In this document: one piece after another, positions 1 to 17,255 of the stretch
Numbering within the stretch: position 1 is the stretch's first letter
Layout of the letters: the number at the start of each line of letters is the position of its first letter
Source of the DNA: Acidimicrobiia bacterium
GTDB lineage: Bacteria > Actinomycetota > Acidimicrobiia > Acidimicrobiales > Ilumatobacteraceae
Assembly: GCA_030425785.1 (NCBI GenBank)
Contig: JAUHYJ010000008.1
Location: 1-18,338, forward strand
DNA: 18,338 nucleotides
Direction of reading: 5' to 3'
Translations under genes and position numbers: made by a program
The notes under the pieces: generated by a model
Databases searched by the model: none
Told to the model about the DNA's origin: nothing
The model's input: only the letters and a program-made list of their open reading frames with translations

Positions 1-395
1 CGTCGCTCGACCACGACCTCGACCTGCTCGCCGCGAAGGTCGACGCCGGAGCCGACCGGGCGATCACGCAGATGTGCTTCGACACCGACGCCGTCGTGCG
101 CTACGCCGAGCGCGTCGAAGCGCGCAGCATCGACGTCCGGCTCACCGCCGGGATCTTCCCGATCCACTCGTTCCCGGCCGTGGCCCGCTTCGCCTCCCGG
201 TGCGGGGCGACGATCCCCGATGCGCTCGCCGAGCGCTTCTCCGGGCTCGACGACGACGCGGAGACCACCCGCAAGCTCGGCGCCGAGTTCGCCGCCGAGC
301 AGATCGACCGACTCGCCGACCACGGCATCGACCACGTCCACCTCTACACCCTCAACCGCTCCGAGCTGGCGCACGCCGTGCTCGAACGCCTCTGA
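1..395 (+). CDS. metF: Methylenetetrahydrofolate reductase, C-terminal part (5' truncated by window)
   Basis: This is the last ~130 codons of a 5,10-methylenetetrahydrofolate reductase, which makes 5-methyl-THF with FAD and a nicotinamide cofactor. The frame is open from base 3 and ends with TGA at 393-395; the start lies left of the window. Visible family features are the segment [13 protein letters not shown] followed by RLTAGIFPI (the end of the TIM barrel, where families usually read 'AGA..ITQ.FFD' and 'AGIMPI'), and a C-terminal helix with [16 protein letters not shown] character (here [13 protein letters not shown]) before the stop. The gene is 14 bases upstream of metH on the same strand, so the two are very probably co-transcribed and metabolically coupled: MetF's product is the methyl donor of MetH. 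Length and N-terminus cannot be judged. The assignment rests on these motifs plus the metH context. Confidence 0.9.
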
Positions 396-409
396 TCGAC
401 GGAACCACC

Positions 410-4102
<3,693 letters not shown>

Positions 4103-4104
4103 CG

Positions 4105-4704
4105 TCACCAGCCGTTGCGGTGGACCTGCTCGTCCAGCGGACGACGTTGACGGGACGAACCACTCCCGGTCGGCGTCTCGTCGTCGGCGCGGTAGCCGAG
4201 TCCGATCACGCCGATCGGCCGGATGCCGTCGGGGACCCCGAAATGGTCGAGCAGCTCGCGCTCGTGCTCGCTGATGCCGAAGAACCAGCCGCCGAGCCCG
4301 TTGTCGACCGCAGCCAGCAACGCCGTCATCGCTGCCATCGACGCATCGACGTCCCAGAACTTCACGGGCCAGGCGTCGGCGTCCTGGAGGCCGAAGTCGG
4401 CCTTGTCGTCCTCGCTGTAGCGGGCCGTGTACCTCCGGTGGTCGGCGATCGGCAGCACGATGACGGTCGGTCCGGCCGCCAGGAACTCGTCGGACATCGG
4501 GAACTCGCGGTCGTCGGTGATCCGCCAGAAGTCGGCGACCGTCTCGGGCGTGTCGAGCACGAGGAAGTCGACGCCCTGCGCGAAGCCGGCCGTCGGTGAC
4601 CGCCGGGCCAGATCGAGGATCCGGTCGACGACGTCGGCGGGCACCGGGCGTTGGTCGAACCGACGGACCATCCGGCGCCGACGCACCGTGTCGCTGAACT
4701 CCAT
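4105..4704 (-). CDS. Nitroreductase-family FMN oxidoreductase
   Basis: The 199-residue protein belongs to the FMN-dependent nitroreductase family, which reduces nitro groups, quinones or flavins using NAD(P)H; the true substrate is unknown. Visible features are an N-terminal basic stretch RRRRMVRRF that typically contacts FMN phosphate, then SPTAGFAQG, a central GGWFFG segment, and the C-terminal end GYRADDETP...RRPLDEQVHRNGW, characteristic of short actinobacterial members. The ATG at 4702-4704 is preceded by TACCGT-N6, a -10-like hexamer placed for a leaderless transcript. The gene stands alone: convergent with metH (two-base gap) and divergent from the thioredoxin-like/UGSC operon across 64 bases. 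Annotators sometimes label relatives cobalamin-lower-ligand (BluB-like) enzymes, but nothing here specifically supports BluB despite the neighbouring metH. Confidence 0.85.
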   Translation of the reverse strand: MEFSDTVRRRRMVRRFDQRPVPADVVDRILDLARRSPTAGFAQGVDFLVLDTPETVADFWRITDDREFPMSDEFLAAGPTVIVLPIADHRRYTARYSEDDKADFGLQDADAWPVKFWDVDASMAAMTALLAAVDNGLGGWFFGISEHERELLDHFGVPDGIRPIGVIGLGYRADDETPTGSGSSRQRRPLDEQVHRNGW

Positions 4705-4710
4705 GCGTGC

Positions 4711-4716
4711 ACGGTA
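4711..4716 (-). promoter_or_regulatory. Putative -10 hexamer of leaderless nitroreductase promoter
   Basis: Read on the minus strand the hexamer is TACCGT, matching TANNNT, followed by exactly six bases and then the ATG. Transcription would start at or next to the start codon. No convincing -35 is visible. It forms a 7-base inverted repeat (CTACCGT/ACGGTAG) with the divergent hexamer at 4757-4762. Confidence 0.45.
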
Positions 4717-4756
4717 GTTGCGTCGCTGCGCTCGCTCGCTCGCGGTTCGCCCGGGC

Positions 4757-4762
4757 TACCGT
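4757..4762 (+). promoter_or_regulatory. Putative -10 hexamer of the UGSC operon promoter
   Basis: TACCGT followed by six bases (CCCCAC) and the ATG at 4769, the same geometry as the divergent nitroreductase promoter. It predicts a leaderless mRNA for the three-gene selenoprotein operon. No clear -35; the bases between the two divergent hexamers are a GC-rich GCTCGCT-type run. Confidence 0.45.
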
Positions 4763-4768
4763 CCCCAC

Positions 4769-6205
4769 ATGGGCAAGCCGCAGTTGCCGGACGGGTTGGT
4801 CGCGATCGTGAAACGCGACTGTGAGACGTGCCGGACCGTCGTCCCGGTGCTGCAACAGCTCGCAGCCGGGCCCGGCATCACCGTCTACACCCAGGACGAC
4901 CCCGACTTTCCCGGTGATCCCGCGGCCGTGTACGACGCCGACCTCGCCGTGAGCTGGCACCACGACATCGAGACGGTGCCGACCCTCATCCGCGTCGTCG
5001 ACGGCGCCGAGGTCGGCCGCACGTTCGGCTGGTCGCAGCCCAATTGGCGCGAGTTCACCGGCATCGACGACCTCGGCGACGGGCTGCCCGTGATGCGGCC
5101 GGGGTGCGGCAGCAAGAGCGTCGATCCCGACCTGGTCGACGAGCTGCGTGCCCGTCACGGCGGCAGCATCCTGCGGTCGCGGCGCATCGAGGTCGCCGAC
5201 GCCGAGGACGACATCGAGATGATGTTCACCCGGGGCTGGAGCGACGGGCTGCCCGTCGTCCCACCGACCGAGGCCCGCGTGCTCGCCATGCTCGACGGCA
5301 CCAGCCGTGCGCCCGACGAGGTCGTGGCCACCGTGCCACCCGACCTCGTCGAGGCGACCGTCGAGAAGGTCGCGATCGCCGCCGTGATGGCCGGGTGCAA
5401 GCCCGAGTACTTCCCCTGGGTGCTGACCGCGGTCGAAGCGGCGTGCACCGACGAGTTCAACATGCACGGTCTGCTGGCGACGACGATGCCGGTCGGGCCG
5501 ATCGTGGTGTGCAGCGGCCCGGGCACCCGCAAGATCGGCATGAACTCGGGCATGAACGTGCTCGGGCAGGGCAACCGGGCGAACTCGACGATCGGCCGCG
5601 CCCTGCAGCTCGTCGTTCGCAACGTGGGCGGCGGACGACCGGGTGAGGTCGACCGGGCCGCCCACGGCAACCCCGGCAAGCTCGGGTTCTGCTTCGCCGA
5701 GGCCGACGACACGTCGCCGTACGGCACGCTCGCCGGCAGCTTCGGGGTCGACGAGGGCACCGACGCACTGACCGTGTTCGCGGGCGGCGGGCCGACCTGC
5801 CTGTTCGATCAGCTCTCGCGCGAGCCCGAGTCGCTCGCCAACTCGCTCGCCCACCAACTGCAGGCGGTGAACCACCACAAGCTCGTTCGCGGCTTCGACG
5901 CGATGCTGGTCATGGGTCCGGAGCACGCCCGCGTGTTCGCCGAGGCCGGGTGGGATCGCGACCGCATCCTGTTCGAGCTGCACGTGCGACTGGCCACCCC
6001 GGCCACCGAGCTCGAGCGTGGCGCCGGCGGCATCGCGGAGGGTGTTCCGGCCGGCTTCGGCGACGCCGCGCTCCCCAAGTTCACCCCGACCGGGCTGCTG
6101 CTCACCTACGCCGGCGGTGGCGCGGGGCTGTTCTCGGCCGTGATCGCCGGCTGGGTCAACGGCGCGAAGGGCTCGACACCCGTCACCAGAGAAGTGCGAT
6201 ACTGA
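4769..6205 (+). CDS. Thioredoxin-like domain fused to large conserved domain, partner of the UGSC selenoprotein
   Basis: The 478-residue protein has two parts. Residues ~8-110 look like a thioredoxin fold: a beta strand LVAIVKRD, the redox pair Cys18-Glu-Thr-Cys21, and a cis-proline-type segment ETVPTL with Pro71. From about residue 150 a second domain begins with TRGWSDGLPVVPPT (154-167), continuing with AVMAGCKPEYFPWV, MHGLLATTMPVGPIVV, GPGTRKIGMNSG, GNRANSTIGRAL and GKLGFCFAEAD. I recognise this as a widespread conserved family of unknown function, with several Cys in conserved-looking blocks (AGC, VVC, GFC), but know no established reaction. There is no signal peptide, so it is probably cytoplasmic. 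ATG 4769 is chosen because TACCGT-N6 precedes it and the upstream in-frame extension is low-complexity. It is first in the operon, 45 bases before the UGSC gene. The fused CxxC domain would suit a reductase for the UxxC of the next gene (inference). Confidence 0.8.
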   Translation: MGKPQLPDGLVAIVKRDCETCRTVVPVLQQLAAGPGITVYTQDDPDFPGDPAAVYDADLAVSWHHDIETVPTLIRVVDGAEVGRTFGWSQPNWREFTGIDDLGDGLPVMRPGCGSKSVDPDLVDELRARHGGSILRSRRIEVADAEDDIEMMFTRGWSDGLPVVPPTEARVLAMLDGTSRAPDEVVATVPPDLVEATVEKVAIAAVMAGCKPEYFPWVLTAVEAACTDEFNMHGLLATTMPVGPIVVCSGPGTRKIGMNSGMNVLGQGNRANSTIGRALQLVVRNVGGGRPGEVDRAAHGNPGKLGFCFAEADDTSPYGTLAGSFGVDEGTDALTVFAGGGPTCLFDQLSREPESLANSLAHQLQAVNHHKLVRGFDAMLVMGPEHARVFAEAGWDRDRILFELHVRLATPATELERGAGGIAEGVPAGFGDAALPKFTPTGLLLTYAGGGAGLFSAVIAGWVNGAKGSTPVTREVRY

Positions 6206-6215
6206 CCTGTCGTTC

Positions 6216-6228
6216 GGGGTCAGACCCC
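6216..6228. repeat. Intergenic palindrome of a dispersed short element
   Basis: GGGGTCAGACCCC is a perfect odd palindrome (with C/G flanks, arms of seven) between the thioredoxin-like and UGSC genes. The adjoining GGATGACAGAT, read on the opposite strand as ATCTGTCATCC, recurs at 14382-14392 as ATCTGTCATCG followed by GGGGTCAGG, so the two sites look like copies of one short element. It could slow or partly terminate transcription before the selenoprotein gene. Confidence 0.6.
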
Positions 6229-6250
6229 GGATGACAGATCTGGGGGAACC

Positions 6251-6772
6251 ATGACACGCACGATTCTCGATCCGACCGGCGAACGCAGCGTCGCCGAGCG
6301 GGCGCGCCTGGCACGGCCGGGCTCGCTCGACGGGGTCACCGTCGGCCTGCTCGACATCAGCAAGCCGCGCGGCGACGTCTTCCTCGACCGCATCGAGGAA
6401 CGGCTGGCCGAGACCGGCGCGACGGTCAAGCGGTACATGAAGCCGACGTTCGCGAAGCCTGCCCCCGTCGACCTGCGCCACGAGATCGCGACCGAATGCC
6501 AGGTCGTGATCGAGGCGCTCGCCGATTGAGGCAGCTGCACGTCGTGCAGTGTGCACGACATCAGTGACCTCGAGCTCCGCGGCGTCCCCGGCGTGTTCGT
6601 GGCGTCGAGCGAGTTCGTGACCGCGGCCGAGGCCCAGTCGAAGTCCCTCGGCTACTCGGCCATGGCGCGCGTGTTCACGCCGCACCCGATCCAGGATCGC
6701 ACCGACGACGAGATGCGCAACTACGCCGACGCGGCGTTCGAACAGATCGTCGCCCAGATCACCGCCGGCTGA
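6251..6772 (+). CDS. UGSC-family selenoprotein (in-frame UGA read as selenocysteine)
   Basis: The 173-residue protein is interrupted by one in-frame TGA at codon 93 (6527-6529). Reading it as selenocysteine gives U93-G-S-C96-T-S-C99-S-V-H-D, the signature of the UGSC (seleno)protein family, named from its motif and found in metagenomic selenoproteome surveys. The same frame stays open on both sides. The N-terminal half has GVTVGLLDISKPRGD (about 28-42) and a Rossmann-like start. The second half has SVHDISDLELRGVPGVFV, FVTAAEAQ and PHPIQD (144-149), as in family members. UGSC is a UxxC pair, likely forming a selenosulfide, so a redox role is inferred; the substrate is unknown. ATG 6251 follows GGGGGA at 6242-6247, with short spacing. 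A SECIS-like hairpin follows the UGA. The gene sits between the thioredoxin-like partner and an MBL-like gene 15 bases downstream. Standard calling would report two ORFs (6251-6529, and ~6551-6772 from a GTG without ribosome site). Confidence 0.93.
6527..6529 (+). other. Selenocysteine codon UGA
   Basis: The in-frame TGA lies between ...VIEALAD and GSCTSC. Family relatives have U (or Cys in non-selenium versions) at exactly this site, and coding with the same GC-rich codon style resumes immediately after it. Decoding needs SelB and tRNA-Sec, which are not in this window. Confidence 0.92.
6541..6559 (+). promoter_or_regulatory. Bacterial SECIS-like hairpin after the UGA
   Basis: GTCGTGC (6541-6547) pairs perfectly with GCACGAC (6553-6559) around the five-base loop AGUGU. 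Eleven bases separate the UGA from the stem, the spacing known for the E. coli fdhF minimal upper stem-loop. A G is present in the first two loop bases, as bacterial SECIS models require. The overlapping stem CTGCAC (6535-6540)/GTGCAG (6544-6549) is mutually exclusive and could compete. The two AGU serine/AGU codons here depart from the usual GC-ending codons, consistent with RNA constraint. Confidence 0.75.
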
Positions 6773-6787
6773 CCCGTCGAGGCACGC

Positions 6788-8485
6788 GTGATCGCCGACC
6801 GCTCCGTCATCGCGACCGGCCCGAAGGGCGAGCTCGCGCACCGTGACTCGATCGCCCACTCCGAGCGGTTCGAGCGCCGCCTCCACGAGGTGACACACGG
6901 GGTGTGGTGCTACGTCGGTGGCGGGCTCCCGAACATCACGTTCGTCGAGGCGCCCGACGGCCTGATCGTCGTCGATTCGGGCGAGAGCCGCGAAGAGGCG
7001 GCCGAGGCGCTGGCCGCGGTGCGCGAGCACACCGACGCCCCGCTGCGGGCGATGCTCTGGTCGCACTTCCACTATGTGAACGGCACCGCGACGTACACCG
7101 ACGAGGCACCCGACCTCGAGATCTGGGCCCACGTCGACGGTCCGCGGCTCCTGGCCGAGATGGGCGCCGAGGTCGGGCCGGTCCGGTCGCGAGGCGTCGT
7201 GCAGCAGTTCGGCATCCTGCTCCCCGACGAGGGACCCGACGCCCTGCCGAACGTCGGGCTCGGGCCGTTCTGGAAGGACCCGAACCGACCGAGGACGACC
7301 CACGGCTACGTGCCGCCCAACCGGTTCGTCGACGGCCCGACCGACACGACGATCGCCGGTGAGCGGGTCGTCCTGACCCCGGTGCCGAGCGACAGCGAGG
7401 ACACCGTCGTCATCTGGCTGCCCGACCGGGCGGTGTGCATCAACAACCATCTCTGGCCGGCGCTGTTCAACGTCTTCCCGCTGCGCGGCGAGCCCTACCG
7501 CGATCCGTTGGTGCGGCTCCGGGCCTTCGATCTGATGCTCGGCTACGGCCTCGACCACCTCGTCGGCGTCCACGGCCCACCGATCAGCGGCGCCGAGCGG
7601 GTGCGCACTGCCCTCACCGACTACCGCGACTCGATCCAGTTCCTGTGGGACCAGACGGTGCGCGGGATGAACGCCGGGCTGACCCTCGGTGAGCTGGTCG
7701 AGCAGGTGCAGCTCCCCGATCGCTTCCGGGACGCCTACTACACGACCGAGTTCTACGGGATGGTGCCGCACCACGTCCGCCAGATCCACGGCGGGGTCCG
7801 CGGCTGGTTCGACGGTGACGCCGTCAACCTGTTCCCGCTCCCGCCCGCGGACGAGGCACGCCGCATCATCGCCGGCCTCGGCGGCCGCGAGAACGTGCTC
7901 GGCCAGGCCCGTGCGGCGCTGGCCGACGACGAGGTGTCGTGGGCGGCGCAGCTCGCCACATACCTGCTCCGTGTCGACCCGGACGACGGCGATGCCCGCA
8001 CCGTCAAGGCCGGTGCGCTCCGCCTGATCGCCCAGACGGTCACGGCTGCCAACGTGCGGTCGTGGTGCCTCACCCAGGCGCGCGAACTCGAAGGTGAGCT
8101 CTCGCTCGATCGATTCCGGGTGCACCACACGTCGGCTCGCCGCGTCCTCGAGGCGGCACCCGAGGTCTACGTCCACGCGCTGCGGGTGCAGCTCGCACCC
8201 GAGCGGGCCGATGTCGAGATCGGCGTGCAGTGGCACTTCGTCGACGCCGACACCCGCGCGAGCCTGCGGCTCCGGCACGGCGTCGCCGTGCCCGGCTCGA
8301 TCGACGACCACGCCGACGTCACCCTCGCGCTCGACCTCGCGACCTGGGCGGCCATCTACGCCGGCGACACGACGGCATCGGAGGCCGAGACCGACGGGCG
8401 GCTCACGATCGACGGCGACCGGGCCGCGCTCGGGCGCTTCTTCGCCGCCTTCGACCAACCCCACCTCGCCGCCGCGTTCGCGTGA
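6788..8485 (+). CDS. Alkylsulfatase-like metallo-beta-lactamase-fold protein
   Basis: The 565-residue protein has the three-part layout of SdsA1/BDS1-type alkyl sulfatases: an N-terminal metallo-beta-lactamase domain (~30-280), an all-helical dimerisation domain (~300-440, with FYGMVPHHVRQIHGGVRGWFDGDAVNLFPLPP), and a C-terminal SCP2-like domain (~450-565). Family hydrolases cleave sulfate esters at a binuclear zinc site. Here the usual HxHxDH reads H93-F-H95-Y-V-N98: the Asp and third His are replaced, although VGVHGPP may retain a later metal His. It may therefore bind one metal or have a different activity. There is no signal peptide. The start is GTG at 6788, after GAGG at a normal distance. 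It lies 15 bases downstream of the selenoprotein, so it is translated from the same mRNA and probably acts in the same process. The stop at 8483-8485 is convergent with mutY, 21 bases apart. Confidence 0.82.
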   Translation: MIADRSVIATGPKGELAHRDSIAHSERFERRLHEVTHGVWCYVGGGLPNITFVEAPDGLIVVDSGESREEAAEALAAVREHTDAPLRAMLWSHFHYVNGTATYTDEAPDLEIWAHVDGPRLLAEMGAEVGPVRSRGVVQQFGILLPDEGPDALPNVGLGPFWKDPNRPRTTHGYVPPNRFVDGPTDTTIAGERVVLTPVPSDSEDTVVIWLPDRAVCINNHLWPALFNVFPLRGEPYRDPLVRLRAFDLMLGYGLDHLVGVHGPPISGAERVRTALTDYRDSIQFLWDQTVRGMNAGLTLGELVEQVQLPDRFRDAYYTTEFYGMVPHHVRQIHGGVRGWFDGDAVNLFPLPPADEARRIIAGLGGRENVLGQARAALADDEVSWAAQLATYLLRVDPDDGDARTVKAGALRLIAQTVTAANVRSWCLTQARELEGELSLDRFRVHHTSARRVLEAAPEVYVHALRVQLAPERADVEIGVQWHFVDADTRASLRLRHGVAVPGSIDDHADVTLALDLATWAAIYAGDTTASEAETDGRLTIDGDRAALGRFFAAFDQPHLAAAFA

Positions 8486-8506
8486 GCGCCCACGCCCCCG
8501 CCCACC

Positions 8507-9355
8507 TCAGTCGGGCAGGCGCAACCGTTCGCCGTCGAGTGCGCACAGTCCCTCGCGGAGCAACGCATCGACGAGCCGATCGGACGCCACCGTGTCACGC
8601 TGCATGATCGCCGCGACCTCGTCGCGGCCGACGGGGCCGTCGCCGAGCGCCCGCATCAGGCGACCGCGCGCCTGACGGTCGCTGCCCTCGAACCGAGCCT
8701 GCTTCGTGCTGACACCGCTCGATCCGACCGCCGGGTCGGCCCGGTCGGGGTCACCCCGCCACGCGCACCGGTCGGCGACCGGGCACTCGCCGCACCGGGG
8801 CGAGCGCGGTCGACACAGCACGGCACCGAGGTCCATCAGGCACTGGTTCCACACCCAGGCGTCGCCGTGCGGGAGCGCGTCGTCGGCCAGGCGCTGGACC
8901 TGGTTCGGGGTCAGTCGCTCCCCCGCCTGGCGGGCGTAGACCCGGGCGATGTTGGTGTCGACGACCGCCGCGTCGAGCCCGAACGCGAACGCCATGAGCG
9001 CCCGGGCGGTGTACGGGCCGATGCCCGGCAGGGCGAGCAACCCGTCGAGGTCGTGCGGGAACCCACCCAGTTCGGTGACACGCTGCGCCGTGGCGTGCAG
9101 GTTGCGCGCCCGCCGCGGGTACCCGAGGCCCTGCCACTCGCGGAGCACGTCGCCGAGCGGCGCCGCCGCGCACGCCGTCGGCGTGGGGAACCGTTTGAGG
9201 AACGCATGCCAGCGCGGGATCACCCGAGCCACCTGGGTCTGCTGGAGCATGACCTCGCTGACCAGGACCGCCCACGGGTCGCGCGTCTCGCGCCACGGCA
9301 GGTCGCGCAGGCGCGGCACACCCCACGCCAGCACCTCACCGGTGAACGTGCTCAC
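8507..9355 (-). CDS. mutY: A/G-specific adenine glycosylase MutY
   Basis: The 282-residue enzyme removes adenine mispaired with 8-oxoguanine. It shows LPWR (19-22), the catalytic Glu34 in SEVMLQQTQV, a helix-hairpin-helix LPGIGPYTA (109-117), Asp133 in VVDTNIARV, and a [4Fe-4S] cluster set C181-x6-C188-x2-C191-x5-C197. After the cluster there are only ~85 residues ending in a winged-helix-like segment, not the Nudix-like 8-oxoG recognition domain of E. coli MutY; this shorter form is common in actinobacteria, so it is not a truncation by itself. The start is GTG at 9355, overlapping the stop of the upstream membrane-protein gene in a four-base GTGA arrangement, which implies translational coupling. 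It is the last gene of a minus-strand run from 11713. Confidence 0.93.
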   Translation of the reverse strand: MSTFTGEVLAWGVPRLRDLPWRETRDPWAVLVSEVMLQQTQVARVIPRWHAFLKRFPTPTACAAAPLGDVLREWQGLGYPRRARNLHATAQRVTELGGFPHDLDGLLALPGIGPYTARALMAFAFGLDAAVVDTNIARVYARQAGERLTPNQVQRLADDALPHGDAWVWNQCLMDLGAVLCRPRSPRCGECPVADRCAWRGDPDRADPAVGSSGVSTKQARFEGSDRQARGRLMRALGDGPVGRDEVAAIMQRDTVASDRLVDALLREGLCALDGERLRLPD

Positions 9356-10695
9356 GACTTGCGATGGCGGCGCCAGTGGCGGAAGCGCTCCTGATGCTCC
9401 TCGATCCGTTCGCGCGTCGAGGGCGGCCGCCGGATCAGCTGACCGGTGTCATCGCGCGTCGGGAAGCGCAGCGCGAAGTCGACCTTCGACTCACCGCGTC
9501 TCGTTTCCTCCTCGGCGAGGTCGCGCAGGCGTATCAGCCGTTCTCGGCGCTCGATCGACCACGGCCCGACGCGCAGCGACAGGTAGAGCAGCCCGCCGAG
9601 CAGGATCGGGAAGAAGAACTGCGCGAAGCGGTACGCGGCCACACCCAGTGTGGCCGGACGCCGCTCGACGCCGAAGCCGACGAGCATGATCACGTAGCTG
9701 GCGTCGACGTAGCCGAGCCCGCCGGGGGTGATCGGGATCGCCGCCATCACGTTCGCGATGCCGAACGCGATGATGAGCGCGTCGACGCTCAGCGTGACGT
9801 TGAACGCCCGCAGGAACACCCACAGCGCCGCCGCGTCGAACAACCAGTTCAGCGCCGCCCAGAACGCCACGCGACCGAGGAGCCGCTTGTCGCTGATCAG
9901 CTGGTCGAGCCGCTCGGCGAGGCGGTACACGACGCTCGATGCCTTGTCCTCGTCGAAGCGGAGCTTGCGGGCGATCCAGCGGATCATCCGCTCGGCCCGA
10001 CCCTGGCCCTCCATCAGCCCGAACACGAGCGCGCCGGCGATGCCCATCACGATGACGCCGGCGAGGGCCGCCGAGCCGTACAGCGGGTTGACGCCGCGGA
10101 TCGGGATCGAGACGATCAGGCCGACCCACAGGATGAGGTTGAGGACGACGGCGGATCCGAGCCCGACGGTGGCGAGCGCGAAGCCCGCATCGGGGCCGGC
10201 GACACCCGAGAGGGTCATCAACCGATAGCCGAGTGCCGACGATGCGGCACTGCCACCGGGCACGATCGACGAGAGCGCGCGCGTGCTCATCTGGATCCGG
10301 AACAGCCGCCATCGTGACAGCTGCTCGCCGGCGTCGCCGAGCGCCGCCTTCATGAGCGGCGCATAGCAGTAGAGCGCGATCAGTTCGAGTGCGAGACCGA
10401 CCCCGAGCAGTAGCGGTTCGACCCGCCGGAGATCATCGAGCGCATCCCGGAAATCGGGGATCATCGGGACGATGAAGTAGTAACTGAGCGTCGCTGCCAC
10501 CAGCAGCTTCAGCGTGAACCGGAACGGCTTGCGGTTCGGCGCATCGTCGTCCGCGTCGCCGCCATCGTTCCTCGCGCCGTCGACGTCGACCGGATCGCGG
10601 TCCGCGTCGGGCTCCCAGGTGATCCCGGCCTCGCTGTGCGAGCCGGGCCGGCGCCCGGTCGTCGGGCCAGTGGAGGAGGTGACGGGTTCGGTCAT
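9352..10695 (-). CDS. Lysylphosphatidylglycerol synthase-type transmembrane (UPF0104/YbhN-like) protein
   Basis: The 447-residue integral membrane protein belongs to the LPG_synthase_TM / UPF0104 family. A charged, probably disordered cytoplasmic N-terminus (~1-62) is followed by about eight hydrophobic segments (roughly 62-82, 95-112, 135-165, 170-200, 208-232, 275-297, 305-330, 350-378). The family hallmark TPGGLGYVDASYV is followed by VGFG. A basic cytoplasmic tail follows. Relatives act as aminoacyl-phospholipid flippases when fused to a synthase domain; this stand-alone form lacks the catalytic domain, so its cargo is unknown. ATG at 10693-10695. It overlaps mutY by four bases and lies 34 bases after the serine hydrolase gene. 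A TAGCCT hexamer overlapping that gene's stop (10727-10732) could provide a separate promoter with a ~31-base leader. Confidence 0.85.
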   Translation of the reverse strand: MTEPVTSSTGPTTGRRPGSHSEAGITWEPDADRDPVDVDGARNDGGDADDDAPNRKPFRFTLKLLVAATLSYYFIVPMIPDFRDALDDLRRVEPLLLGVGLALELIALYCYAPLMKAALGDAGEQLSRWRLFRIQMSTRALSSIVPGGSAASSALGYRLMTLSGVAGPDAGFALATVGLGSAVVLNLILWVGLIVSIPIRGVNPLYGSAALAGVIVMGIAGALVFGLMEGQGRAERMIRWIARKLRFDEDKASSVVYRLAERLDQLISDKRLLGRVAFWAALNWLFDAAALWVFLRAFNVTLSVDALIIAFGIANVMAAIPITPGGLGYVDASYVIMLVGFGVERRPATLGVAAYRFAQFFFPILLGGLLYLSLRVGPWSIERRERLIRLRDLAEEETRRGESKVDFALRFPTRDDTGQLIRRPPSTRERIEEHQERFRHWRRHRKS

Positions 10696-10729
10696 CGCGC
10701 TGGCGGCTGGCAGGAACCGCCACCTCAGG

Positions 10730-11713
10730 CTATGCGACGAGTGGCACGGAGCGGATGAGGTCGCCGATTCCGGCGACGACGTGGCGACGCATCTCGGCCG
10801 GCGTCTTGCCGAGATGCACGACCGTCAGCCGGCGATCGGGCACGACCACGATGTACTGGCCCTCGTAGCCGTGGGCGGCGATCGAGCCCGGGAACTCGGG
10901 CCACATCCACCAGTGACGGCCGTAGTCGAACCCGGTCGGCAGGTCATCGGTCGGGTCGTGGGCCACCTGGGTGCGGCCGTGGTCGGCCCAGCCTTCGGGC
11001 AGGATCCGCTCGCCGGCAGCGGTCACACCGTCGTGGCGGTAGAGCTCGCCGAACCGGGCGAAGTCGCGGGCGGTCGCGTACACGTACGACGACCCGACCC
11101 AGGTGCCGACGTCGTCGAACTTGGGGATCGCCGAGGTCATCCCGCACGGTGCGAACAGCCGCTCCTGGAGGAACCGTTCCATCCCGTCGCGTCCGCCGCC
11201 GACGATGTCGCCGAGGATGCGGGTGATGATGTTCGTCGTGCCCGACGAATAGTTCCACACCGTGCCGGGTGCGTGATCGAGCGGCAGGGCCGCGGCGTAC
11301 GCCGCATGGTCGTCGGCCCCGTCACCGAACAGCATCGCGATGCAGTGCGACGTCTCGCCGTCGACGTAGTCCTCGACGAAGCGCAGGCCCGGTCGCATCT
11401 CGAGCAGGTCGAGCAGCGTGATCGCCTCCTTGTCGGTGCCGCGCCACTCGGGGACGGGCGCCGGCAGGTCGAGGTCGAGGCGGCCGTCGCGGACGAGGAT
11501 GCCGCACGCCGCGTGGGTCATCGACTTGGCCGTGCTCCACGAAATGAGCGTCGACTCGGCCGTGACCGGCTCGGCCGCGGCGAAGTCGTTCGCCGGCTGC
11601 TCGCCGTAGCGCTCGGCGACGATCTCGCCGTCGTGCATCACGACCATGGCGAGCGAGATGCCCTGGTCGGTGGGACGTTCGAAGATCGCATCGACCGACG
11701 ACTGGAGATCCAT
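10730..11713 (-). CDS. Serine hydrolase of the beta-lactamase class C / esterase family
   Basis: The 327-residue protein has the penicillin-binding-protein fold: the SxxK motif S60-T-A-K63 (nucleophile and general base), a Tyr motif in WNYSSGTTNI (Tyr155), and HGYEGQ near the C-terminus in place of KTG. These families include EstB-type esterases, D-aminopeptidases and class C beta-lactamases; substrate specificity cannot be told from sequence, and no signal peptide supports a periplasmic or secreted beta-lactamase. ATG at 11711-11713 was preferred over an upstream GTG at 11768-11770, because the extra residues are unlike the family and would overlap the divergent sigma-factor start; TACCGT-N6 lies directly before it. 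It is the first gene of the minus-strand group with the LPG-type membrane protein and mutY. Confidence 0.87.
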   Translation of the reverse strand: MDLQSSVDAIFERPTDQGISLAMVVMHDGEIVAERYGEQPANDFAAAEPVTAESTLISWSTAKSMTHAACGILVRDGRLDLDLPAPVPEWRGTDKEAITLLDLLEMRPGLRFVEDYVDGETSHCIAMLFGDGADDHAAYAAALPLDHAPGTVWNYSSGTTNIITRILGDIVGGGRDGMERFLQERLFAPCGMTSAIPKFDDVGTWVGSSYVYATARDFARFGELYRHDGVTAAGERILPEGWADHGRTQVAHDPTDDLPTGFDYGRHWWMWPEFPGSIAAHGYEGQYIVVVPDRRLTVVHLGKTPAEMRRHVVAGIGDLIRSVPLVA

Positions 11714-11719
11714 GGGGCG

Positions 11720-11725
11720 ACGGTA
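11720..11725 (-). promoter_or_regulatory. Putative -10 hexamer of leaderless serine hydrolase promoter
   Basis: On the minus strand TACCGT is followed by six bases (CGCCCC) and ATG, the same arrangement as at 4711-4716 and 4757-4762. No clear -35 is visible. Confidence 0.45.
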
Positions 11726-11738
11726 GCGGACCCAACCG

Positions 11739-11755
11739 CGTGGCAGGCTGGCGGG
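11739..11755 (+). repeat. 17-base upstream element shared with the LOG gene promoter
   Basis: CGTGGCAGGCTGGCGGG occurs here, directly upstream of the sigma-factor start, and in inverted orientation at 15519-15535 immediately before the LOG gene ATG. CAGGCT within it sits where a -10 would lie: six bases before the LOG ATG and ten before the sigma-factor GTG. It may be a shared promoter motif. Confidence 0.5.
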
Positions 11756-11759
11756 TGTC

Positions 11760-12239
11760 GTGGGTGACATGACGGACGTGGGTCAACTCTTCGATGCCGA
11801 GTACGAGCGCCTGGTGCGCTCGCTCGGTGTCGCGTTCGACCCGGCCGACGCCGCCGATGCGGTGCAGGAGGCGTTCATCCGCGCCGATCGCGACTGGTCG
11901 AAGGTGCGCGGGCTCGACGATCCGGCGGGCTGGGTTCGGCGGGTGGCCGTCAACCGGCTGCTCAACGGGCAGCGCAACCGTCGCCGGCGGCGGGAGATCC
12001 TCGCCACCGTGCGGCCGATCGCCGACGCCGACCTGACCGCCGAGCTGCTCGATCTGCGCCAGGCGGTCGCGTCGCTGCCGGACCGGATGCGTGCAGCCGT
12101 CGTGCTGCACTACCTGTCGGGCCTGCCGGTCGACGACGTCGCCGCTGCGCTCGACGTCGCGCCCGGCACGGTGAAGTCGAACCTGCACGATGCGCGCGCC
12201 CGTCTCCGTTCCGCACTCACGGAGGGCTCCGATGTCTGA
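11760..12239 (+). CDS. ECF-type RNA polymerase sigma factor
   Basis: The ~159-residue protein has the two-domain ECF sigma organisation. Region 2 (about 10-65) contains the acidic DAADAVQEAFIRADRDW stretch for RNA polymerase contact and the -10-binding GWVRRVAVNRLLNGQRNRRRRRE. Region 4 (about 100-155) contains LPDRMRAAVVLHYLSGLPVDDVAAALDVAPGTVKSNLHDARARLR, a helix-turn-helix for -35 recognition. The start is GTG 11760 or ATG 11769, three codons later; GTG is nearer the predicted transcription start, but ATG is equally acceptable. The stop overlaps by eight bases the start of the following membrane protein, which is the classic sigma/anti-sigma arrangement. Auto-regulation is likely but no operator is evident. 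Confidence 0.92.
   Translation: MGDMTDVGQLFDAEYERLVRSLGVAFDPADAADAVQEAFIRADRDWSKVRGLDDPAGWVRRVAVNRLLNGQRNRRRRREILATVRPIADADLTAELLDLRQAVASLPDRMRAAVVLHYLSGLPVDDVAAALDVAPGTVKSNLHDARARLRSALTEGSDV
12221..12226 (+). promoter_or_regulatory. Strong ribosome binding site deciding the start at 12232
   Basis: GGAGGG lies five bases before the ATG at 12232, inside the 3' end of the sigma-factor gene. It is the best Shine-Dalgarno match noticed in the window and rules out the upstream in-frame start at 12190. Confidence 0.8.
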
Positions 12240-14379
12240 CGACGCACCCATCCCGCACGACCTGACCGATCGGCTCCGACGGCTCGAGCCGCAGGTCGAC
12301 GTTTCGGCGAGCCGAGCCGTGTTCGAACGTGGCCGCACTGCGCCGGCGGTGCCGCGCTGGCTGATGCCCGCCGCGGCCGCCGTGCTGATCGTCGGCGGCA
12401 TCGTCGGGCTGCTGGCACTGCGCAGCGGCGACGACGACGTGGTGCCGAGCGCCGACACCGACCCGGCGGCCGAGGAGCGGGAGGCCGTCAACGTGCTGAC
12501 CGAGGGCGACGGCTACGAGACGGTGCTGGTCGCCGAGTCGCGGTTCGGGTTCGGCAACGCCGAATTGGTCACGTCGGACGAGCAGTTGGATGCGTTGTGG
12601 GACGAGTGGACACCCGGCCCCGTCCGGCCGGGCGTGGACTTCTCACGTGCCGTCGCCGTGGTGACGACTCGGCCGGACGATGCCTGTCCCGACGCCCTCG
12701 TGCGATTCGAGCGTGGTCCGGCGGACGACCGGCCGACCGAGTGGACCGCCGTCTTCGAGGACCTGGCAGAGGAGTGCGAGGTCCCGCTGCTCTCGTGGAT
12801 CTACGTCGTGGCGATCGACCGGGACGCGCTGGGTGCGGCCGCGACGATCGTGCTCCCGGCACAGGACATCTTCGATGTCCCCGAGCAGCGTCTCGAGTAC
12901 ACCGCCGCCGGATCGACGCCGAGCGACCCGACCGACGATGAATCTCCGACCCTGGCCGACACCGGCATCGTCGTCGATCTGCCCGAGGTCGGCAGCCCGA
13001 CGCTGCACAATCTGAGCATCGGGCTCGTCTGGGTCGTCGCCCACGACGACGGCACCGTGTCGGTCTTGCCGGCGACGGTCGACGTGTTCCCGGTCGCCGA
13101 GGAGGACACCGGGGGCGCGAACCCGCAGCAACGTCTGGTGTCCGTGTCGTCCGGTGGCGACGCGTTCCTCTCGTCGCCGTTCACGTGGGACGACCACGGC
13201 CGCACGATCAACGGCGGGCGCGTGAACGACCTCGCCGGCTTCGTCGGACGCGTCGAGGACGACGGCGTGCACGTCTGGACGACCGATGCCGACCGGATCG
13301 AGGGCGCGCCCGAACCTCTGCCCGACCGCGTCGGCACGTCGCCGGACCGCACCCAGGCCGAGCTGCGGCGTGCGGTCGGTGAGCCGATGGATCCGATGAC
13401 GTTCTTCACCCTCTCGTCGAGCGGGCCGATCTGGCGGTACTTCGACGCGACGCTGGTCGTGGAAGATGGCGTCGGCCGGATCTGCGAGCTGCCGACCGAC
13501 GTGCCGGTCCCCGACCAGACGGGCTGCGACGATGCGGAGATCGCGATCGACACCCAGGTCACGTCCGGCGACCCGGACCTGACGACCTGGTTCCACCCGC
13601 CGATCCTGGCCTTCCAGGACCCGCTGCGGGGGTTCACCACCTTCGTCCCCCTCGGTGGCATCAGCAGCCGCAACGACGCGGCCTTCGACGAGGATGCCGA
13701 GGCGATCGTCACCGACGTGAGGCTCGAGTGCGGCCCGCCCGGGCTCGTCATCCGCGTCGACATGGAGTTCTTCACCGCCGAGTCGGCCGAGTTCGTCGTG
13801 ATCGACGGCGACGTCGAACTGACCAGCGGTAACCTGACGACCACCGAGCCCGGCGAGTCGGGCATCGGGCTCTCGCTCACGAATCCGCCGACCCCCGACG
13901 CCGAGCTCCGTGTCTCGTTCGGCACCACCGACCTGACCCTGCCCCTCCCCGATGAGGTCCCGGACTGCACCGCGGAGCCATGGGAGCGCCTCACGACCGC
14001 CATCACCGACGACGTCGAGGTGCCCGGCGTCGTGCTCGCAGCCGACCCCGTGGCGTGGAACGACCTCGCCGAGCGGATGGGCGTACCCACCGACCGGCTG
14101 GACGACGAGTCTCTCGCTCTGGCGGTGACGGCCGAATGGTATCCATGCACGCCCGACGTGCGGGTGTACGCCGACAGCGAGCCTCGGACCTGGGTCGTCG
14201 AGTACGGGCCCGGCGACGAGGACGAGTGCGAGGCCATGGCGGTGGCGCAGACCACGGTGCTCGCCGTCCCCGCCGACCTCGTCGGCGAGCAGTTCGTCGT
14301 CCGGCTCGCGACCGCGGGCGTGGAGGGCGGACCACGCTTCGCCGTCGATCTGGCGAGCGACGTCGTCACCCGCCTCTAG
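12232..14379 (+). CDS. Large single-pass membrane protein, probable anti-sigma factor or sensor of the ECF sigma factor
   Basis: The 715-residue protein has a short N-terminal cytoplasmic part (1-41, DLTDRLRRLEPQ...), one transmembrane helix at about 42-63 (LMPAAAAVLIVGGIVGLLAL), and a ~650-residue acidic extracytoplasmic region. The N-terminus lacks a clear zinc anti-sigma HxxxCxxC motif, so the anti-sigma call rests on topology and the eight-base overlap with the sigma gene. The outer region seems to contain at least three units. Residues ~95-215 have a pattern like PrcB-type domains (VTSDEQLDALWDEW...VDFSRAVAVV). A middle unit (~245-365) resembles the end of a Rieske domain without its ligands. 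The C-terminal unit (~490-715) is beta-rich with scattered Cys that may form disulfides. None of these gives a function. Translation starts at ATG 12232 after GGAGGG. Confidence 0.75.
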   Translation: MSDDAPIPHDLTDRLRRLEPQVDVSASRAVFERGRTAPAVPRWLMPAAAAVLIVGGIVGLLALRSGDDDVVPSADTDPAAEEREAVNVLTEGDGYETVLVAESRFGFGNAELVTSDEQLDALWDEWTPGPVRPGVDFSRAVAVVTTRPDDACPDALVRFERGPADDRPTEWTAVFEDLAEECEVPLLSWIYVVAIDRDALGAAATIVLPAQDIFDVPEQRLEYTAAGSTPSDPTDDESPTLADTGIVVDLPEVGSPTLHNLSIGLVWVVAHDDGTVSVLPATVDVFPVAEEDTGGANPQQRLVSVSSGGDAFLSSPFTWDDHGRTINGGRVNDLAGFVGRVEDDGVHVWTTDADRIEGAPEPLPDRVGTSPDRTQAELRRAVGEPMDPMTFFTLSSSGPIWRYFDATLVVEDGVGRICELPTDVPVPDQTGCDDAEIAIDTQVTSGDPDLTTWFHPPILAFQDPLRGFTTFVPLGGISSRNDAAFDEDAEAIVTDVRLECGPPGLVIRVDMEFFTAESAEFVVIDGDVELTSGNLTTTEPGESGIGLSLTNPPTPDAELRVSFGTTDLTLPLPDEVPDCTAEPWERLTTAITDDVEVPGVVLAADPVAWNDLAERMGVPTDRLDDESLALAVTAEWYPCTPDVRVYADSEPRTWVVEYGPGDEDECEAMAVAQTTVLAVPADLVGEQFVVRLATAGVEGGPRFAVDLASDVVTRL

Positions 14380-14398
14380 CGAATCTGTCATCGGGGGT

Positions 14399-14444
14399 CA
14401 GGCACAAGTCGCAAGGTCAACCGCGACCTTGCGACTTGTGCCTG
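14399..14444. terminator. 20-bp perfect inverted repeat between convergent genes
   Basis: The arm 14399-14418 is exactly complementary to 14425-14444 with a six-base loop (AACCGC). It lies between the stop of the membrane-protein gene (14379) and the Nudix gene, whose last codons are inside the right arm. No U-tract follows, so it is either a stem-only bidirectional terminator or a mobile palindromic element. The outer part contains GTGCCTGGCAC (14438-14448), also found at 17239-17249. Confidence 0.7.
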
Positions 14445-14929
14445 GCACCGGGTGCAAGGTCGGTGGCGAGCAGGCGCTCGCCGTCGAAGATGCACCTCGC
14501 GGTGAACCAGTCGCCTGCGAGCAGCATCGGGAACCAGAGCTCGTCGTCGGGCCACATCTCGTCGAAGGGGATGTCGTCGAGGGTGTGCCAGAGCGGGATC
14601 GCCTCGGGTGTCTCGACCGGCTCGCCCTCGTGGCCGTCGGCTCGGAACACCGTGCAGTGCAGTCGCAGGCCGTCGAGGAAGTGGAACCGCAGCTCGCCGG
14701 CCTCGACGACGCCGGTCGGCACGACGCCGACCTCCTCGGTCGTCTCCCGGATCGCCGCTTCCATGGCCGTCTCGCCGGGGTCGATCTTGCCGCCGGGGCC
14801 GTTGATCAGCCCGGCGCCGATGCCGCGTTGCTTGCGGATCAGGAGGATCCGACCGTCGTGGATCACGAACAGCAGGGTCGCCCGGACGGTCGGCTCCCAG
14901 ACCGACCAGTCGACCTCGTCGACGTTCAA
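14417..14929 (-). CDS. MTH1-like Nudix hydrolase (probable 8-oxo-dGTP diphosphatase)
   Basis: The 170-residue enzyme has a perfect Nudix box at 47-69 (G47-x5-E53-x7-R61-E62-xx-E65-E66-x-G68) and, unusually informative, MWPDDELWFPMLLAG (125-139), the same segment as the MWPDD...WFPLLL of human MTH1, where the two Asp recognise the purine. This supports hydrolysis of oxidised purine nucleotides over generic MutT. The start is TTG at 14929, seven bases after the LOG stop and preceded by a GGTGA site; no ATG or GTG fits. The last ~13 residues (PGARHKSQGRG) are encoded by the palindromic element at 14399-14444 and its flank, so they are not part of the ancestral fold. The gene is co-transcribed with LOG. 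Confidence 0.88.
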   Translation of the reverse strand: MNVDEVDWSVWEPTVRATLLFVIHDGRILLIRKQRGIGAGLINGPGGKIDPGETAMEAAIRETTEEVGVVPTGVVEAGELRFHFLDGLRLHCTVFRADGHEGEPVETPEAIPLWHTLDDIPFDEMWPDDELWFPMLLAGDWFTARCIFDGERLLATDLAPGARHKSQGRG

Positions 14930-14936
14930 CGCGCGA

Positions 14937-15518
14937 TCACCGAACCGACGGGTCGGTCCACTTGCTCGGGCTGTCGGGTGCCGGGGCGCGCACGATCTCG
15001 ATGGCGTCGGCGACCGTGCTCGCCCGCTGCGCCATGACCCGGTGGGCGTCGCGGATCAGCCCGGCGGCGACCGCCTCGTCGAAGAACTGGAACAGGCGCT
15101 CGTAGTAGCCGCCGACGTCGAGGAAGGCGACGGGCTTGGCCACGATGCCGATCTGGTTCCAGGTCAGGATCTCCATCACCTCGTCGAGGGTGCCGTAACC
15201 GCCCGGCAGGGTGACGACGCCGTCGGAGCGGTCGCACATCGCCTGCTTGCGGGTGTGCATCGTGTCGGTGACGATCAGCTCGGTCAGCCCGGTGTGGGCG
15301 ACCTCGCGGTCGGCGAGCGCCTGCGGGATGACCCCGATCACCTCGCCACCCGCCGCCAACGTGGCGTCGGCGACCGTGCCCATCAGGCCGACCCGGCCGC
15401 CGCCGTAGACCAGCTGGTGTCCGCCGGCGCCGATCGCCGTGCCCAGCTCGGTCGCGATCTCGGCGATCGCAGGGTCGTTGCCCGGGTTCGATCCGCAGAA
15501 CACACAGATGCTCGCCAT
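14937..15518 (-). CDS. LOG-family nucleotide 5'-monophosphate phosphoribohydrolase
   Basis: The 193-residue protein belongs to the LOG (Lonely Guy) family, formerly misnamed lysine decarboxylase. It hydrolyses the N-glycosidic bond of cytokinin-type or other nucleoside monophosphates, releasing base and ribose-5-phosphate. Features are the N-terminal strand ICVFCGSN, LVYGGGRVGLMG (37-47), the conserved Arg90-Lys91, and the signature PGGYGTLDE (105-113). ATG 15516-15518 begins exactly where family homology starts; the in-frame upstream extension to 15800 runs back through the mcd promoter and start and is rejected. CAGGCT-N6 precedes the ATG, predicting a leaderless mRNA. The Nudix gene follows after seven bases. 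The bacterial substrate is generally purine monophosphates and is not determined here. Confidence 0.92.
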   Translation of the reverse strand: MASICVFCGSNPGNDPAIAEIATELGTAIGAGGHQLVYGGGRVGLMGTVADATLAAGGEVIGVIPQALADREVAHTGLTELIVTDTMHTRKQAMCDRSDGVVTLPGGYGTLDEVMEILTWNQIGIVAKPVAFLDVGGYYERLFQFFDEAVAAGLIRDAHRVMAQRASTVADAIEIVRAPAPDSPSKWTDPSVR

Positions 15519-15535
15519 CCCGCCAGCCTGCCACG
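15519..15535 (-). repeat. 17-base promoter element shared with the sigma-factor gene
   Basis: The minus strand reads CGTGGCAGGCTGGCGGG directly into the LOG ATG, identical to 11739-11755. CAGGCT is a degenerate -10 six bases before the start codon. Confidence 0.5.
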
Positions 15536-15551
15536 TCCGGCACCGCCGGTT

Positions 15552-15592
15552 GCGTGAGGATCGGACCGCTCGTCGCCGCCCGATCCTCACGC
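15552..15592. promoter_or_regulatory. 13-bp perfect inverted repeat in the LOG/mcd divergent region
   Basis: GCGTGAGGATCGG (15552-15564) and CCGATCCTCACGC (15580-15592) are exact inverted copies separated by 15 bases. They lie in the 127-base space between the divergent LOG and mcd starts, upstream of both predicted -10 sites. This is suited to a dimeric regulator binding site or an RNA hairpin. Confidence 0.55.
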
Positions 15593-15633
15593 GAACGACG
15601 TCACCCGCTTGGATGGCGACGGTTACCGACGGG

Positions 15634-15639
15634 TAGTTT
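15634..15639 (+). promoter_or_regulatory. Putative -10 hexamer of leaderless mcd promoter
   Basis: TAGTTT matches TANNNT and is followed by six bases (TGGACC) and the ATG at 15646. A TTGGAT at 15609-15614 is a possible -35 with a 19-base spacer, slightly long. Confidence 0.5.
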
Positions 15640-15645
15640 TGGACC

Positions 15646-17232
15646 ATGACGTCGCCCGATCTCGCCGCCGCCACCGCCGCCATCGAGACCGCCGAGTCGG
15701 TGATCGCGACGGCCGTCGCCCGTCTGACCGAGCTCGGTGGCCCCGACGCCCAGCAGGTCTTCGCGTACGAGCTCGCCCACGGCGCGGCCGGCATCGCCAC
15801 CGCCCGCTCGATGCTCGGCTACGGCGAGCACGGCGACACCGAGGCCGCTCTGGCCTGCGGCTTCGCCGCCGACGCGATCCACGATCTCGCGACCAAGCTG
15901 CTCGGCCGCCACGAGCTGTGGGGCGTCGACCCCGACGCCCTTGCCCCGACCGATGGCTTCGTCACGACGTATCGCGATCCGGAGTTCATGGCGTCGCTCG
16001 CCCGCACGCCGGGCCCCCGCCACCTCCCCCAGGAGATGGACATGGTGCAGGACGCCTTCGGGGCCTTCGCGCGGGACGTCATCGCACCCCACGCCGAGCA
16101 CGTGCATCGCACCAACGGCGACGTGCCCGAGGAGATCATCTCGGGCATGGCCGAGCTCGGCGCGTTCGGCCTCAGCGTGCCGGCCGAGTACGGCGGCTAC
16201 AGCGAGGGCGGCGAGGAGGAATACCTCGGCATGGTCGTCGCGACCGAGGCGCTCAGCACCGCCAGCCTCGGCATCGGCGGTTCGCTGATCACGCGCCCCG
16301 AGATCCTCACCCGCGCCCTCGTCAAGGGCGGCACCGAGGACCAGAAGAACGAGTGGCTGCCGAAGCTCGCCACCGCCGAGGTCATGCCGGCCGTTGCCGT
16401 CACCGAGCCCGACTACGGCTCCGACGTCGCCGGCCTCAAGGTCACCGCCACCCCGCAGGACGGCCCTGACGGCGAAGCCGGCTACGTCATCAACGGCGTC
16501 AAGACGTGGTGCACGTTCGGTGCTCGCGCCGACGCCCTCGCGCTCCTCGCCCGGACCGACCCCGACAAGTCGGCCGGCCACCGCGGCCTCAGCCTGTTCA
16601 TCGTCCCGAAGGAGCGCGGCGACGGCCACGGCTTCGTGATCAAGCAGGACGCCGGTGGGAAGATGGAGGGCCGCCCGATCGACACGATCGGCTACCGCGG
16701 CATGCACTCGTACGAGATCGCGCTCGACGACTGGTGGGTTCCCGAAGACAACTTGGTGGGAGGCCGCCAGGGTCTTGGTCAAGGCTTCTACCTCCAGATG
16801 GCCGGCTTCGAGAACGGGCGCCTCCAGACCGCGGCCCGTGCGCTCGGCGTGATGCAGGCCGCCTACGACGCGGCGGTCGAATACGCCGACAACCGCAAGG
16901 TGTTCGGCCAGAACATCGTCGAGTACCAGCTCACCCAGGCCAAGCTCGGCCGGATGGCGATGATCATCCAGGCCAGCCGTCAGTTCTCGTACGAGGTCGC
17001 CCGACTCATGGGCCAGGGCAAGGGCCAGATGGAGGCGTCGATGGTGAAGGCCTACGTCTGCAAGGCCGCCGAGTGGGTCACCCGCGAAGCCATGCAGATC
17101 CACGGTGGCTTCGGGTACGCCGAGGAGTACGCGGTCAGCCGCCTCTTCGTCGACGCCCGCGTCCTGTCGATCTTCGAGGGCGCCGACGAGACGCTCTGCC
17201 TCAAGGTCATCGCCCGCCGCCTCGTCGCGTAG
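15646..17232 (+). CDS. mcd: (2S)-methylsuccinyl-CoA dehydrogenase (acyl-CoA dehydrogenase family)
   Basis: The 528-residue flavoprotein is an acyl-CoA dehydrogenase with an extra ~130-residue N-terminal helical domain (AYELAHGAAGIATARSMLGY, then FAADAIHDLATKLLGR), the distinguishing trait of methylsuccinyl-CoA dehydrogenase, which makes mesaconyl-CoA in the ethylmalonyl-CoA pathway. The core follows with VPAEYGGY, AVTEPDYGSDVAG (FAD/substrate), GYVINGVKTWCTFG, DTIGYRGMHSYEI, GFENGRLQTAARALG, REAMQIHGGFGYAEEY and the catalytic-base segment SIFEGADE with Glu511. The sequence strongly resembles characterised Mcd proteins along the whole length as I remember them. ATG 15646 is supported by TAGTTT-N6. 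No other ethylmalonyl-CoA genes (ccr, ecm, mch) are adjacent in this window. A general short-chain acyl-CoA dehydrogenase is less likely given the N-terminal domain. Confidence 0.9.
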   Translation: MTSPDLAAATAAIETAESVIATAVARLTELGGPDAQQVFAYELAHGAAGIATARSMLGYGEHGDTEAALACGFAADAIHDLATKLLGRHELWGVDPDALAPTDGFVTTYRDPEFMASLARTPGPRHLPQEMDMVQDAFGAFARDVIAPHAEHVHRTNGDVPEEIISGMAELGAFGLSVPAEYGGYSEGGEEEYLGMVVATEALSTASLGIGGSLITRPEILTRALVKGGTEDQKNEWLPKLATAEVMPAVAVTEPDYGSDVAGLKVTATPQDGPDGEAGYVINGVKTWCTFGARADALALLARTDPDKSAGHRGLSLFIVPKERGDGHGFVIKQDAGGKMEGRPIDTIGYRGMHSYEIALDDWWVPEDNLVGGRQGLGQGFYLQMAGFENGRLQTAARALGVMQAAYDAAVEYADNRKVFGQNIVEYQLTQAKLGRMAMIIQASRQFSYEVARLMGQGKGQMEASMVKAYVCKAAEWVTREAMQIHGGFGYAEEYAVSRLFVDARVLSIFEGADETLCLKVIARRLVA

Positions 17233-17237
17233 CGGGT

Positions 17238-17250
17238 AGTGCCTGGCACT
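17238..17250. repeat. Palindrome between convergent genes, terminator-like
   Basis: AGTGCCTGGCACT is an odd palindrome (six-base arms) in the 23 bases between the mcd stop and the HAD hydrolase stop. Its core GTGCCTGGCAC recurs at 14438-14448, also at a convergent gene end. It could be a bidirectional terminator or a dispersed element. Confidence 0.5.
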
Positions 17251-17255
17251 CCCCG

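Follow-up and report, generated by a model that had tools for sequence, protein, structure and literature searches.

Does an in-frame TGA in an actinobacterial gene encode selenocysteine (Sec), and, if so, what might the resulting protein do? We addressed these questions on a stretch of 18,338 nucleotides, here called the window, from an Acidimicrobiia bacterium of the family Ilumatobacteraceae (GenBank assembly GCA_030425785.1, contig JAUHYJ010000008.1, positions 1 to 18,338), in which an earlier reading made from the letters alone (the sequence-only reading) had proposed a UGSC selenoprotein gene. UGSC was listed among the selenoprotein families in 2008, with 255 sequences in aquatic metagenome surveys (PMC2398784), and its share of selenoprotein genes was later given as 8.2% (PMC9402790). 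As far as these sources were accessible, UGSC is among the more numerous families in such surveys and carries no assigned job, in agreement with the remark in the sequence-only reading that its function is not established. We found that the window protein belongs to this known family and that its gene is hidden from ordinary gene callers by the internal stop-like codon. To the sequence-only reading we add a putative selenocysteine insertion sequence (SECIS) hairpin, a partner gene termed UP, and a possible relationship to GrdB, the selenoprotein B of glycine reductase.

Translated with TGA as Sec (U), positions 6251-6769 gave 173 residues including ADUGSCTSCSVHD and, 3' of the TGA, TPHPIQD, and the frame was closed by a second TGA at 6770-6772. 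Translation thereby confirmed the frame through TGA 6527-6529, the UGSC motif and the downstream PHPIQD that had been read from the sequence. Searched against the UGSC family, the read-through product matched along its whole length with scores above the curated cut-offs of both Pfam PF24696 (E of 1.3e-46, residues 4-171, 159 bits against a cut-off of 25) and NCBIfam NF041046 (169 bits against 125), which supports the family identity proposed earlier. The family motif is U/C-G-S-C, its first residue being encoded by TGA or by a Cys codon; the window has TGA. The open frame 3' of the TGA, taken alone, is weak evidence, as the chance of 80 codons staying open at the base composition of the window is 0.44. 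Homology and conservation exceed chance, and we thus regard the UGSC frame as real. When the window gene was compared with 63 ungapped relatives, the differences at codon positions 1/2/3 amounted to 1248/919/2853 for residues 1-92 and 985/724/2068 for residues 105-173. The excess at the third position on both flanks of the TGA bears out the earlier claim that both are coding. Calling without recoding yields open reading frames (ORFs) of 92 and 73 aa. By a manual count, 103 of the 120 database matches listed were 95-126 aa long and covered 50-53% of the query, so the truncated automated calls foreseen by the sequence-only reading are indeed common. Gene callers often truncate UGSC, and this locus is an example.

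The codon at the Sec site was examined in two sets of relatives. In 296 genomes of the same phylum, 23 of which matched UGSC at an E of 0.001, exactly one TGA was present in 16 of the 17 UGSC matches above the cut-off and in 26 of all 35 listed. Named genomes were scanned with two patterns excluding the Sec position, and the best 80 of at least 558 confirmed stretches, thus close relatives, were retained. Among the 107 loci from both searches, the site was occupied by TGA in 102 and by a Cys codon in five (L034, L038, L039, L047 and L050), with no other codon; three pairs were identical, leaving TGA in 99 and Cys in five of 104 distinct sequences. Because the TGA recurs across many separate assemblies, a read error, raised earlier as a way in which the proposal might fail, is very unlikely. 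At the protein level, the Sec site of 14 near-full-length database matches was filled by Cys in ten, Trp in two and Arg in one, and was garbled in one (P0007). The proteins with Arg (P0002) or Trp (P0003 and P0005) are short metagenome proteins, and these residues perhaps stem from code-4 gene calls or read errors.

A candidate bacterial SECIS (bSECIS) hairpin follows the TGA. The bSECIS consensus comprises a loop of 3-9 nt with G in one of its first two places, a stem of 4-16 bp, a distance of 16-37 nt from the UGA and a folding energy of at most -7.5 kcal/mol, as given in the consulted part of PMC13188914. The hairpin at 6541-6559 has a 3-nt loop starting with G, an 8-bp stem, 19 nt between the UGA and the loop and a predicted energy of -12.9 kcal/mol (34-nt piece), and conforms to the four rules, its loop lying at the lower size limit. 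Among 91 distinct sequences that were at least 60% identical, the median synonymous diversity was 0.0 in codons 97-103 and 0.49 elsewhere (p of 7e-6), and the common residue was encoded by a single codon at positions 97 (ACG), 99 (TGC), 100 (AGT), 101 (GTG) and 103 (GAC). Stem pair 18-30 was never broken in 90 distinct rows, in which it appeared as G-C in 78, G-T in six and A-T in six; pair 15-33 was broken in three. Two observations weigh against the hairpin, namely that 20 of 200 shuffles folded equally well, leaving its stability unremarkable alone, and that pair 16-32 was broken in 13 of the 90 rows. The evolutionary evidence for a SECIS element is stronger than that from hairpin stability.

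The source draft genome (4.42 Mb, 857 contigs, 83% complete) contains all of the genes that we sought as signs of bacterial Sec insertion: selA (400 bits) and the adjoining selB (265 bits, cut-off 242) on contig C58, selD (327 bits) and tRNA-Sec (66.2 bits, gathering score 47), together with a single copy of the UGSC gene. The lack of selB and tRNA-Sec, which according to the sequence-only reading would have spoken against a selenoprotein, is therefore not observed. In a sample of 40 related genomes, selA exceeded the cut-off in 17 of the 18 with a TGA-type UGSC gene versus nine of the 22 others (p of 0.0004), the latter comprising one of three with solely non-TGA UGSC genes and eight of 19 without a UGSC match. 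A point against this association is genome G036 (locus L026; 94% complete), in which a TGA-type UGSC gene was found and no selA match; perhaps a contig is missing or the system has decayed. In at least 11 of the 80 named loci, sel genes lie directly upstream of UP (tRNA-Sec in eight, selB in ten, selA in seven, selD in five; L067, L082, L086, L087, L088, L093, L096, L097, L102, L104 and L109), a lower bound since many loci hold little upstream DNA. In these genomes, UGSC may be a main client of the Sec machinery. Altogether, the sequence data make Sec insertion at codon 93 near certain. The source genome also holds a second likely selenoprotein, a short GrdB/PrdB-like one (L146, contig C184, about 3193-3594 and beyond), whose frame passes through a TGA (...LLTPIUPFCTRTVSV...).

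The UGSC gene is preceded by UP, from which it is separated by 45 nt in the window. In 75 of the 80 named loci, the 2.5 kb preceding UGSC contained the end of a UP homologue. The gap could be determined in 73 of them: it ranged from -4 to 917 nt (median of 12 nt) and did not exceed 60 nt in 66. Of the remaining loci, L100, L106 and L116 lie at most 0.4 kb from the locus start, no UP was found in the 2.2 kb upstream at L103, and a partial match lies 7.4 kb away at L101. Of the 296 genomes, 23 had UGSC (E up to 0.001) and likewise 23 had the UP core (above 150 bits), and 22 had both. The unpaired cases are the core alone in G183 and a weak UGSC match alone in G018, and nine further genomes matched the thioredoxin part of UP alone, at 29 bits or less. 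In database protein P0176, UP is fused to the front of UGSC, up to the Sec codon. From this sequence evidence, we regard UP and UGSC as a two-gene unit that probably shares one transcript. The structure of UP predicted by AlphaFold2 (AF2) had a predicted local distance difference test (pLDDT) score of 91 and shows residues 2-99 in a thioredoxin fold that, with the CxxC motif, identifies the N-terminus (residues 1-99) as a thioredoxin domain; some UP homologues are annotated as thioredoxin in their source records. In the UP core, C210 and H386 are invariant in alignment A3. Distant partners align over the core only, and at eight places their frames are 362-386 aa long, too short for core plus thioredoxin domain. 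This counts against a general role of the latter: a thioredoxin recharger cannot be universal, as distant partners have no room for it. Two further observations concern this unit. Contig C272 of G183 shows several UP-core matches in frames of 664 and 782 residues and no UGSC match, perhaps representing a divergent fused form. Between UP and UGSC, a perfect inverted repeat without a T run (CGGGGT-CAG-ACCCCG, window 6215-6229) is possibly an attenuator or nothing.

What kind of protein UGSC may be was approached through remote similarity. When 38 UGSC members were searched with hmmscan at E up to 1, all matched UGSC_fam, and the four other families matched by more than five members were all selenoprotein B of glycine, betaine, sarcosine or D-proline reductase (28, 28, 13 and 11 members). 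TIGR01917 was matched by 28 (best E of 8.8e-7) and the PrdB model by three. The matches extended up to UGSC residues 76-161 against GrdB 326-409 of 431, and seven of ten UGSC proteins scored in detail reached an E of 0.01 or less with GrdB-type models. A custom hidden Markov model (HMM) built from 20 GRDB ends detected, at E<1, 90 of the 107 UGSC sequences, none of 939 neighbour ORFs and one of 1070 shuffles, and 12 of the 107 at E<0.01; hhalign aligned UGSC with the GRDB ends at a probability of 84.5%, Sec on Sec. The UxxCxxC motif, which GrdB is reported to carry (PMC13188914, consulted in part), and the Sec register are those of GrdB/PrdB.

Several results weigh against this relationship. 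The ten UGSC proteins scored 15-19 bits with GrdB-type models, far below the family cut-offs (65 to 800; 602 for TIGR01917), and so fall outside the GrdB/PrdB families by score. The window protein itself reached an E of 0.095 and 11.3 bits with GrdF (cut-off of 800) and an E of 0.32 with the custom HMM. The Pfam GRDB model (PF07355), which ends just before the Sec, matched none of the 38 members, and a phosphorylase model (NF006492) matched five of them (best E of 8.9e-4). With the seven motif residues masked, two of the 107 sequences remained at E<1 and the window protein dropped out, so much of the GrdB signal is the motif. A fold search returned only a common doubly wound fold. On these data, UGSC likely shares a remote common origin with the Sec end of selenoprotein B, which is not membership of GrdB.

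The predicted fold bears on the best surviving alternative, in which UGSC is a general thiol/selenol antioxidant or peroxidase, a thioredoxin-like oxidoreductase with UP as its reductant. A thioredoxin fold is defined here by the order beta-alpha-beta-alpha-beta-beta-alpha, in which the first core helix carries the redox motif. In the AF2 model of UGSC (pLDDT of 95), strands and helices alternate in five units, and the helix after the third strand opens with residue 93 (a Cys in the model). This predicted order differs from that of thioredoxin and speaks against a thioredoxin fold for UGSC itself. That fold had been thought likely in 2008 (PMC2398784, consulted in part), where the oxidoreductase suggestion originates, and the possible GrdB link likewise questions it. 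The UxxC motif and the linked thioredoxin domain of UP would suit an antioxidant. On the other hand, GrdB-type reductases accounted for most of the NCBIfam matches listed for the 38 members beyond UGSC, no thioredoxin model was among these matches, and the near-constant presence of the UP core suggests a specific substrate. We thus consider this alternative unlikely. A true stop at the TGA, with the gene either a pseudogene or split into two proteins, would agree with the two ORFs obtained without recoding, but is very improbable given that TAA, TAG or another sense codon never occupied the site in the 107 loci, that both sides are under coding constraint, that the SECIS region is frozen and that the sel genes and tRNA-Sec are present. 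Least credible of all is a TGA read as tryptophan (code 4/25) or miscalled from TGC/TGG, which the Trp and Arg residues in three database proteins would favor, since all 107 loci have TGA or a Cys codon at the DNA level, the genome holds the full Sec machinery and a SECIS hairpin would be purposeless.

On balance, we favor a model in which UGSC is a hairpin-guided selenoprotein with Sec at residue 93 in a GrdB-like domain, acting as a UP-recharged reductase of a small substrate. SelB and tRNA-Sec would read the UGA as Sec with the hairpin as a guide, giving an alternating beta/alpha domain of five strands whose Sec lies within UxxCxxC, as it does at the Sec end of selenoprotein B. This domain would act together with UP, whose core, with C210 and H386, may hold the substrate. 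The selenolate of Sec93 could then attack or reduce a small substrate between UGSC and the UP core, the selenyl intermediate would be resolved by Cys96/Cys99, and the CETC thioredoxin domain of UP would recharge the active site, so that selenolate, resolving cysteines and tethered thioredoxin could form a complete reductive cycle. It is the partner with a thioredoxin domain that suggests a selenium-based reductase, and we put forward the thioredoxin-recharged selenolate chemistry on a small molecule as a hypothesis. The family, the conserved TGA, the SECIS, the selenium genes, the two-gene unit, the CxxC and the remote GrdB similarity are read from sequence; from these we infer Sec insertion, co-transcription, complex formation, the direction of electron flow and the kind of chemistry.

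Table 1. Features of the UP-UGSC locus in window coordinates.
Feature	Position	Strand	Basis
UP, 478 aa: N-terminal thioredoxin domain (CETC) and C-terminal domain without Pfam/NCBIfam name	4769..6205	+	
UP thioredoxin CxxC codons, C18-E-T-C21	4820..4831	+	C[AEPQ]TC in 70/70 relatives with covered N-terminus
UP core domain, about residues 146-478, kept in distant UGSC partners	5204..6202	+	alignment A3
Likely ribosome-binding site of UGSC gene, GGGGGA	6242..6247	+	sequence; inference
UGSC selenoprotein gene, 173 residues and stop	6251..6772	+	translation, family profiles
Selenocysteine codon 93, TGA	6527..6529	+	TGA in 102/107 family loci, Cys codon in 5
Putative bSECIS hairpin, 8-bp stem GTCGTGCA/TGCACGAC, loop GTG 6549-6551	6541..6559	+	frozen codons, compensating pair, fold, rules

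Further downstream, 15 nt 3' of the UGSC stop, positions 6788-8485 encode an alkyl-sulfatase-like metallo-beta-lactamase with an SCP2-like tail. Its adjacency to UGSC was not kept in the 80 named loci, and we therefore place this hydrolase outside the UP-UGSC unit. Relatives of the genes at 8507-11770 recur in those loci (mutY in 48, a membrane protein gene in 39, a beta-lactamase-fold gene in 26), and the UGSC neighbourhood is thus partly conserved.

Among known systems, the window protein resembles the UGSC family (PF24696/NF041046) along its whole length, with Sec in U-G-S-C-T-S-C. In the Global Ocean Sampling set, the UGSC/Unknown_1 fusion described in the accessible part of PMC2398784 likewise joins UGSC to an unnamed conserved domain; UP is a neighbour of UGSC in the window and is fused to it in P0176, and we would guess that Unknown_1 is the UP core. 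The searched portion of the UGSC literature mentions neither a UP-UGSC unit with a thioredoxin domain nor a link to GrdB. With GrdB, GrdF, GrdH and PrdB (TIGR01917, NF040794, NF040795, TIGR04483, PF07355), UGSC shares UxxCxxC and a later HP/FP element, and in five full GrdB proteins E, G and P at +15, +18 and +20 after the Sec coincide with those of UGSC. In contrast, the GrdB/GrdF/GrdH models span 431-435 positions against 173 residues in UGSC, and UGSC pairs with a thioredoxin-fused partner. Glycine reductase also draws on thioredoxin, according to the consulted part of PMC13188914. With a fixed partner and a possible GrdB-type ancestry, UGSC is no longer just an "unknown redox protein" and can be tested as a reductase of two subunits. 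Tentatively, UGSC and UP might be related to the Stickland selenoprotein-B reductases, as a system of two components that is driven by thioredoxin and pared down to the bare Sec domain; it would occur beyond the clostridial amino-acid fermenters, in Ilumatobacteraceae and related aquatic Actinobacteria, and there reductively cleave a small molecule.
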